From contig JAPKZH010000297.1 of assembly GCA_026393905.1 (NCBI GenBank), forward strand, positions 1 through 33,264: DNA of 33,264 bases. The letters are read 5' to 3'. This DNA comes from Candidatus Aminicenantota bacterium (GTDB lineage: Bacteria; Acidobacteriota; Aminicenantia; Aminicenantales; UBA4085). Under the pieces are notes generated by a model. The model saw only the letters and a list, made by a program, of their open reading frames with translations. It was not told where the DNA came from and searched no databases. Positions 13,496 through 18,615 of this stretch are shown here, one piece after another (position 1 is the stretch's first letter; the number at the start of each line of letters is the position of its first letter). Made by a program: the position numbers and the translations under genes.

Positions 13496-13790
13496 GGTTC
13501 TCTTCCATTTCGTGTGGGTAGAAAAGGGAAACGATCCGGAGACGGCTGAAGCGACCATGGAGGGTTTAGCCTTCCCGAGCCCTCCTTCGAGGGCAGCCGG
13601 CTCGGAAGAAGCCGGCCGGCGAAGTTGTCTGAGCTTCCCGGCAAACGTCCGTAAAATCGATGCCGGGAAGCGAGTTCTGAGCCGCCGAGAAGGAGGGCTC
13701 GGGAACGGCGTGAAAAACCCGGATGGGGAGCGAGGCCGTTTCCGGATCGTTTCCCAGACGATCTCTCCCCACACGAAATGGAAGAGAACC
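13496..13790 (+). mobile_element. MITE-like foldback element, copy 1 (295 bp, 23-bp perfect TIRs, 8-bp TSD ATAAATAT)
   Basis: GGTTCTCTTCCATTTCGTGTGGG at the left end with its exact reverse complement at the right end; direct repeats ATAAATAT at 13488-13495 and 13791-13798; homologous inverted copy at 17191-17484. Confidence 0.88.
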
Positions 13791-17151: not shown

Positions 17152-17190
17152 GGTGTAATTCTCACTCAGCCGTCCTCGGATTTATGAAAA

Positions 17191-17484
17191 GGTTCTCTTC
17201 CATTTCGTATGAAAAAAATTGTAAGGGAAACGACCCTGAAACGGCCTCGCTCCCTATCCGGGTTTTTCACGCCGTTCCCGAGCCCTCCTTTTCGGCGGCG
17301 AAGAACTCGCTTCCCGGCCTCGATCTTACGGATGTTCGCCGGGAAGCTCAGACAACTTCGCCGGCCGGCTTCTTCCGAGCCGGCTGCTCTCGAAGGAGGG
17401 CTCGAGAAGGCTAAACCCTCCATGGTCGCTTCTTCCGTCTCCGGATCATTTCCTTTTTTTACCCATGCGAAATGGAAAAGAACC
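17191..17484 (-). mobile_element. MITE-like foldback element, copy 2 (294 bp, inverted relative to copy 1)
   Basis: Reverse complement aligns along its length with 13496-13790; ends GGTTCTCTTCCATTTCG.../...CGAAATGGAAAAGAACC; flanks TATGAAAA/TAAGAAAA resemble an 8-bp TSD with one mismatch. Confidence 0.87.
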
Positions 17485-17550
17485 TAAGAAAATCCCTTGA
17501 TTTACGGGTTTCTTTCAATTCATGGGCGGCTTAAAGCAGGGAACCCGTGA

Positions 17551-17595: not shown

Positions 17596-17640
17596 CAAAA
17601 TGACCTAATAATGAACAGTTATTCATAAATCGTTCTATAT

Positions 17641-17760
17641 TATTTATAATAATATATTTAAATGCTTATATATTGAAATAATGTCCATTTATTAAACATT
17701 ATTTATGGTTTAATGATTTTACTTGAATTTCTATAAATACAACATATTAAATAAATTAAA
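17641..17760. other. extreme AT-rich island in the divergent intergenic region (candidate unwinding element or regulatory region)
   Basis: By hand count only about 15 of 120 bases are G or C; flanking coding DNA is far more GC-rich. Confidence 0.7.
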
Positions 17761-17774
17761 AGGTTCTCCGACTA

Positions 17775-17791
17775 TTGGCACCTTTCTTGCT
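17775..17791 (+). promoter_or_regulatory. sigma-54 (RpoN) -24/-12 promoter
   Basis: TTGGCACCTTTCTTGCT: GG and GC dinucleotides separated by exactly 10 nt, TGGCAC and TTGC cores intact; about 40 nt upstream of the GTG start at 17831. Confidence 0.8.
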
Positions 17792-17830
17792 TTTAATGAT
17801 TACGCAATGTGCCCGAAAGGAGCGAGGAAC

Positions 17831-18397
17831 GTGAAAAAAGCATGGCTGGTCTTCGTTATTTTTATCTTCCTCTGTTCCGCTGCTCTCGCTGAATCCGATC
17901 TTATTCTTGTCCTTATCGAAACGCCTCTCCCTGCGGCTCCGGCATCGCCTCTCCAAGACCTTGACCTCATCCCGGTCCCGGCGCCGGAAGTTCAGGACCG
18001 CTCCTTCCCCGTCATTGTCTGCACCGCAAGCCCCGCCTATTCCGGCCAAAAATTCGCCCTGCCGCATATCAAGGCCTCCGACCTTGGTGATTCTATCTAC
18101 AACGCATCCCTGATCTCACTTGCCGCCCTCAACGCCGCCGATTACTTCTCCACGTTAGAGGCGCTCAAATCTCCAGGTGTTGAAGAAAAGAACCACATGC
18201 TAAAGTCTGTGATCAAGGACCGCTATGCTTTTGCTGCGGTCAAGATCGGGTCTACAGCCTTGGCTTGTTACGGCTTGAAAACGCTGTACAAGAAGAGCCG
18301 GCCTTTAGCCTGGGCCCTCTCCATCGCCTCCAACCTCGCTTGTTCTTATGTAGTCTCCAACAATTTCCGGATCATCAACAGGTGCAAAACAAGATGA
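17831..18397 (+). CDS. exported/membrane protein of unknown function, DUF5658-like C-terminal membrane region (tentative)
   Basis: Signal peptide VKKAWLVFVIFIFLCSAALAES, Pro-rich linker, then hydrophobic helices with ALNAADYFSTLEAL...GVEEKNHML...AAVKIGSTALACYGL. GTG start preceded by AAAGGAGCGAGG. Confidence 0.7.
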   Translation: MKKAWLVFVIFIFLCSAALAESDLILVLIETPLPAAPASPLQDLDLIPVPAPEVQDRSFPVIVCTASPAYSGQKFALPHIKASDLGDSIYNASLISLAALNAADYFSTLEALKSPGVEEKNHMLKSVIKDRYAFAAVKIGSTALACYGLKTLYKKSRPLAWALSIASNLACSYVVSNNFRIINRCKTR

Positions 18398-18615
18398 ACA
18401 TGGTCGAATATCTTCAGTCCTACCTCGAGTCGAGGAAAAATTCGCCGGCCCAAAACGAGAACGAGTTCCCCACGCTTGAAGACTTAAGGAGAGAATATAT
18501 TCGTTATCTTCTCGAGGTCACCTTTCACAACATCAGCCTGACAGCGAAAATCCTCAACGTTTCCCGAACGACGCTCTACAACGCCTTGCCTAAACCCCTC
18601 CGCCGATCTTTTTGA
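18394..18615 (+). CDS. small stand-alone Fis/NtrC C-terminal-type helix-turn-helix protein (HTH_8-like)
   Basis: 73 aa ending ...DLRREYIRYLLEVTFHNISLTAKILNVSRTTLYNALPKPLRRSF; start overlaps the previous stop (ATGA). Confidence 0.8.
   Translation: MNMVEYLQSYLESRKNSPAQNENEFPTLEDLRREYIRYLLEVTFHNISLTAKILNVSRTTLYNALPKPLRRSF

Follow-up and report, generated by a model that had tools for sequence, protein, structure and literature searches.

The locus and its genomic setting

The window, i.e. the whole stretch of DNA analysed here, comprises 33,264 nucleotides of contig JAPKZH010000297.1 from a Candidatus Aminicenantota bacterium. It contains a two-gene operon preceded by a predicted sigma-54 promoter and two putative enhancers, and the genome also encodes a sigma-54 activator (bEBP) that appears to be cognate to the operon. 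The features are as follows, with palindrome centres counted from the first T of TGGCAC:

17601..17617, + strand: UAS2, distal enhancer-like palindrome TGACCTAATAATGAACA; 9/12 match, centre at about -167
17682..17698, + strand: UAS1, proximal enhancer-like palindrome TGTCCATTTATTAAACA; 10/12 match, centre at about -86
17775..17791, + strand: predicted sigma-54 -24/-12 promoter TTGGCACCTTTCTTGCT; perfect TGGCAC-N5-TTGC, kept upstream of orthologues across the order
17815..17827, + strand: ribosome-binding site GAAAGGAGCGAGG, from sequence reading; 3 nt ahead of the GTG start
17831..18397, + strand: gene A, DUF5658 (PF18902, Pfam) exported/membrane protein of 188 aa; GTG start
18394..18615, + strand: gene B, stand-alone Fis-type HTH protein of 73 aa (HTH_8, Pfam); DBD-only paralogue
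G000:C525:7205-8569, - strand: cognate bEBP of the window's genome; profile search, E 4e-213

An earlier, sequence-only reading had described a promoter with the GG-N10-GC hallmark and intact TGGCAC/TTGC cores in front of a translationally coupled gene pair. The element is indeed found at 17775-17791, and the ATGA overlap is borne out, as gene A ends at 18397 and gene B starts at 18394. Gene A, read there as a signal-peptide or membrane protein, belongs to DUF5658 (Pfam E 6.8e-9, 36.8 bits against a curated cut-off of 25.2). Its AF2 model (pLDDT 77) shows an N-terminal signal-like helix, followed by a low-confidence linker and three C-terminal helices (residues 82-112, 131-155 and 157-187). 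No significant match to the predicted fold was obtained in the PDB, and DUF5658 is mentioned nowhere in the literature searched.

Gene B had been claimed to be an HTH protein devoid of the AAA+ domain. Pfam places it in the Fis family as HTH_8 (PF02954; E 1.3e-7, 31.7 bits against a curated cut-off of 22), and a search of its 73 residues yields no sigma-54 interaction domain of the AAA+ type (PF00158). The top fold matches of its AF2 model (pLDDT 80) are the DNA-binding domains (DBDs) of bEBPs and Fis, which its sequence also matches in the PDB. Two other short HTH_8 frames of the same genome were rejected: an 83-aa protein on C105 is unrelated and carries an HTH (IHRNTLHNRAKTL) of a different type, and a frame on C88, a fragment at a contig end, is unrelated to the operon.

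The genome has the machinery that the earlier reading had named for checking, namely rpoN (Sigma54_DBD match, E 2.7e-58) and about ten bEBPs, including the cognate one on C525. Perfect TGGCACN5TTGC sites number 14 in this genome, against 6 for a reversed control pattern. Several of the 14 (L032-L045) lie ahead of genes for exported or envelope proteins, namely a type IV pilin-like protein at L083 and signal-peptide proteins at L085, L089, L090 and L091; at L081 the site is followed by a small gene and then a dehydrogenase-like gene. These sites suggest that Aminicenantes may possess a broad envelope-related sigma-54 regulon.

The proposed location beside the replication origin is not supported: the 17.1-17.8 kb gap near the promoter contains no DnaA-box cluster and no clear GC-skew switch, and the operon lies in other surroundings in relatives, so the origin context was dropped. 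A dispersed repeat of about 290 bp occupies 17180-17490 and 13496-13790, in mutually inverted orientation and at 91% identity, the former copy being just upstream of UAS2 (17601-17617). One copy has 40-bp inverted ends; genome-wide, about 20 copies are nearly full-length, and 59 pieces match the repeat. From its sequence it resembles a MITE or REP element.

Conservation, enhancers and the cognate activator

Orthologues of gene A occur in 28 of 60 relatives, and just upstream of most of them lies a TGGCAC/T-N5-TTGC element scoring 12-14 out of 14. Perfect promoter copies are present in 13 of the gene A loci fetched, and none was found elsewhere within 29 gene A loci of roughly 3.4 kb each. The same promoter picture emerges from 27 named GTDB loci, which come largely from the same genomes; every named relative is a MAG labelled Aminicenantes or 'Acidobacteria'. 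Where the contig continues, gene A is in most cases followed by a Fis-type HTH protein of 65-85 aa. Within the class, this small HTH occurs in genomes of the same order; outside the order, matches are weak and nearly all fall in long bEBP-like frames. The gene pair is conserved across an order of Aminicenantes; two of the refuting outcomes named by the sequence-only reading, absence of rpoN and absence of the pair beyond this strain, were thus not observed.

The two genes can also be separated. In four genomes, at L105, L108, L228 and L232, the small HTH has its own palindrome and sigma-54 promoter with no DUF5658 gene beside it, and in G026 DUF5658 stands alone at L016 and the HTH alone at L105, with upstream architecture identical in kind. 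At L026 (G024:C189) a gene A homologue has the promoter, the place of the small HTH behind it is taken by a stand-alone receiver-domain protein, and a cognate-type bEBP lies upstream. At L233 (G346:C356) two tandem combinations of palindrome and sigma-54 promoter are located downstream of the bEBP, with no recognised gene between the first and second promoter.

Upstream of the promoters we found two 17-bp palindromes with the consensus TGTTCA-N5-TGAACA, which the earlier reading does not contain. Their centres are fixed among relatives, at about -82 to -88 for UAS1 and -159 to -173 for UAS2, and 23 palindromes score at least 10/12, where dinucleotide shuffles give 0.26 on average. In loci of the window's own lineage (f1/f6-type), the mean fixed-position score is 8.4 for UAS1 (shuffles 5.5, maximum 5.95) and 8.0 for UAS2 (shuffles 5.9, maximum 6.4). 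In genomes where the bEBP adjoins the operon (f5-type), the corresponding means are 11.2 versus 5.7 and 11.6 versus 6.1. In the window itself the palindromes deviate from the consensus (10/12 and 9/12), which is a point against the explanation that we favor below. A further such point is that IHF-like sites between the palindromes and the promoter are only weakly enriched. A broad palindrome regulon was rejected, since few perfect copies lie elsewhere (9 of 22, 60 genomes) and most of these fall within coding sequence or away from promoters; the copy at L175 is the only other one in the 60 genomes that is close to another sigma-54 site.

The palindromes resemble two kinds of known binding sites. 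TGT-N11-ACA is the enhancer form of NifA/FhlA-type bEBPs, and enhancers of this form usually lie 100-250 bp upstream (PMC6615313). High-affinity Fis sites have G at +/-7, where it is read by Arg85, together with T at -8, a Y-R step at 3-4 and an A/T-rich centre (PMC4784862), and the palindrome bases match this readout at each of these features.

The cognate bEBP was located with a profile built from five bEBPs that directly adjoin the operon in f5-type genomes. In the window's genome the profile matches the C525 protein over its full length (E 4e-213), and the next of its own bEBPs listed is at about 7e-116; across relatives, the orthologues are likewise well separated from other bEBPs. They contain the AAA+ domain PF00158, and in a sample of 297 genomes of the phylum they are found only in this class. 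Gene A and the cognate bEBP occur together in 27 genomes, gene A only in 1, the bEBP only in 5 and neither in 27, with bEBP presence scored by an E cut-off and by reading fragments by eye (Fisher p 5.7e-11, uncorrected for phylogeny). Small HTHs occur essentially only together with this bEBP.

Judged from its sequence, the receiver domain of the cognate bEBP is degenerate and lacks the full conserved D, T and K of a phosphorylatable receiver. Every aligned orthologue has Gly in place of the Thr, the phospho-Asp is substituted in some, and the C525 protein is also devoid of the first acidic residues. A sister bEBP subfamily (L136 and L140; also L126, L190 and L192) has a similar N-terminus with a different recognition helix, of the RPALYRKL type, and adjoins small secreted proteins; in some of its copies an in-frame stop interrupts the matched stretch. 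The earlier proposal of an RpoN-dependent operon is supported by the conserved promoter, the palindromes, rpoN and the cognate bEBP, and the predicted regulatory wiring (promoter, palindromes, activator) is well supported by these comparisons.

Origin and divergence of the small HTH

The small HTH of the window is identical to the DBD of the cognate bEBP at 28 of 43 positions (alignment score 144), with scores of 68 or less against seven other bEBPs of the same genome. Cognate DBDs outscore other bEBP DBDs for all 24 of 24 small HTHs. In a phylogeny of 65 DBD cores, with its resolution limited by 43 columns and with no Fis sequence included, the small HTHs form one clade (support 95/90, 96% of bootstrap trees) nested inside the clade of cognate bEBP DBDs (96/79 against other bEBPs); gene B is accordingly not assigned to Fis itself. 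Since the small HTHs form a single clade and score best against the cognate family, one ancient duplication of the DBD of the cognate bEBP is the simplest reading of their origin. Well-supported elements include, as far as sequence comparison goes, the promoter, the palindromes, the cognate bEBP, this common origin and co-regulation, as well as selection on the small HTHs: pN is well below pS in every pair tested, indicating that they evolve under purifying selection.

The DNA-contacting part has diverged differently among lineages. The small HTH of the window keeps 8 of 10 recognition-helix residues of its cognate bEBP, and the equivalent of Fis Arg85 is retained in 12/12 small HTHs of f1/f6-type and in 29/29 bEBPs, whereas it is lost in 10/12 small HTHs of the bEBP-adjacent (f5-type) lineages. 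Within the bEBP DBDs, conservation peaks in the recognition helix (mean identity 0.87-0.89); in the f5-type small HTHs, which retain the dimerisation helix, it is lowest there (0.27). An altered recognition helix could also confer a new DNA specificity instead of abolishing DNA binding.

The palindromes come closest to perfection where the small HTH is devoid of the Arg85-equivalent. This implies that the bEBP, rather than the small HTH, is the conserved binder there. We therefore rejected the small HTH as the main palindrome binder everywhere, considering that the bEBP keeps its Arg and the palindromes persist despite the loss of that residue from the small HTH.

Possible roles of the small HTH

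bEBPs are hexameric AAA+ machines, usually viewed as gated by signals or curbed by unrelated anti-activators. NifL, PspA, HrpV and FleN are such anti-activators, with unrelated folds that act on the AAA+ or regulatory domain. A DBD devoid of the ATPase can occupy enhancers or dimerise, but cannot remodel the sigma-54 polymerase; negative feedback is therefore the most economical role for gene B. We consider it probable that the operon is a dedicated sigma-54 unit through which the activator induces a DBD-only paralogue of itself, most likely as negative feedback. The cognate bEBP with its degenerate receiver (C525 in the window's genome) would bind the two TGTTCA-N5-TGAACA palindromes, which lie some 110 and 190 bp ahead of the predicted start point, and would activate sigma-54 RNA polymerase at TGGCAC-N5-TTGC. 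The operon would then yield the DUF5658 membrane protein and the paralogue of the same bEBP, and the latter would presumably act on the bEBP or its sites to repress its own operon.

The route of such feedback may differ across lineages. Since the recognition helix is kept in the window's lineage, the small HTH should either compete with the bEBP for enhancer sites there or form mixed dimers devoid of the ATPase. In the other lineages, where the dimerisation helix is kept and the recognition helix is changed, poisoning by mixed dimers, in an Id-like manner, is the likelier route. The sequence-only reading had proposed a feedback device or a competitor for enhancer sites. With 8/10 recognition residues kept, this stands as the leading hypothesis in the window's lineage, but plain competition for sites cannot account for all lineages, because the Arg is mostly lost where the bEBP adjoins (10/12). 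A more far-reaching version, which we put forward tentatively as possible rather than probable, is a bacterial counterpart of the ID proteins: an enhancer competitor that became a pure dimerisation poison after Arg loss where the genes adjoin, and an order-wide limiter of an activator with a degenerate receiver.

A DBD-only protein could also help its activator instead of hindering it. As a positive or architectural co-factor in the manner of Fis or IHF, the small HTH would bind or bend the upstream DNA, as its Fis-like predicted fold, the AT-rich upstream DNA, the Fis-like consensus of the palindromes (PMC4784862) and the recognition residues retained in f1/f6-type lineages would allow. We find this rather unlikely, since the protein would be made from the very promoter it aids and the palindromes are near-perfect in the bEBP-adjacent lineages where 10/12 small HTHs have lost the Arg85-equivalent. 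Nor does it stand beside the operon in some promoter-keeping genomes: G001, G005 and G006 keep gene A and its promoter with no small HTH next to gene A, a point that also tells against negative feedback, since the brake would then be dispensable.

Recognition helices that vary between lineages, stay constant within sub-clades and are under purifying selection would also suit an independent transcription factor with other targets, coupled to the bEBP signal merely by its operon position. This is an unlikely role, given that the small HTH is retained essentially only with the cognate bEBP and its enhancer-type promoter, and that no second target motif was found in this analysis. A decaying, functionless duplicate of the bEBP DBD might be suggested by the several lineages in which the key Arg is gone, but is disfavoured to the point of being scarcely credible: the small HTH has a single ancient origin, its pN is well below pS, and where it has parted from DUF5658 it has been kept independently under its own promoter.

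The sigma-54/bEBP/UAS part of the system is already known in kind. The regulons in PMC6615313 share with it the inverted repeat of the TGT-N10-12-ACA form (NifA/FhlA-type; the spacer is 11 bp), the presence of several UAS at 100-250 bp upstream, a -24/-12 promoter and control of a bEBP-neighbouring operon; in the Clostridiales groups covered there, one bEBP mostly controls one neighbouring operon. The difference is that in Aminicenantes the operon includes a gene for a DBD-only paralogue of the bEBP itself; the passages of that source consulted contain no counterpart. Nor did a literature search of partial coverage find such an operon described. Fis and lambda NinH (PMC7166090) are likewise small stand-alone Fis-type HTH proteins, and the palindrome core fits the 15-bp G/C-bounded AT-rich Fis motif. 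Unlike them, the Aminicenantes protein branches from within the DBDs of a single bEBP, belongs to the operon that this bEBP presumably targets and is devoid of the Arg85-equivalent in many lineages. The eukaryotic ID proteins (PMC3484135) are comparable in that the f5-type paralogue would keep the dimerisation part and lose the DNA contacts; they differ in fold and kingdom, and the Aminicenantes heterodimer is putative. With NifL, PspA, HrpV and FleN the candidate shares the role of a partner that would restrain a bEBP, but it is a copy of the DBD.

If negative feedback is correct, an activator-induced copy of the activator's own DBD would be a different way of limiting a sigma-54 switch, and the occupancy of enhancers, the dimerisation of DBDs and feedback could be tested together in one system. 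The natural series of recognition helices, from intact to lost, makes the question of competition versus heterodimer formation directly testable. DUF5658 becomes linked to a sigma-54 regulon, and the largely uncultured Aminicenantes gain a predicted sigma-54 regulon whose enhancer motif and activator are both defined.
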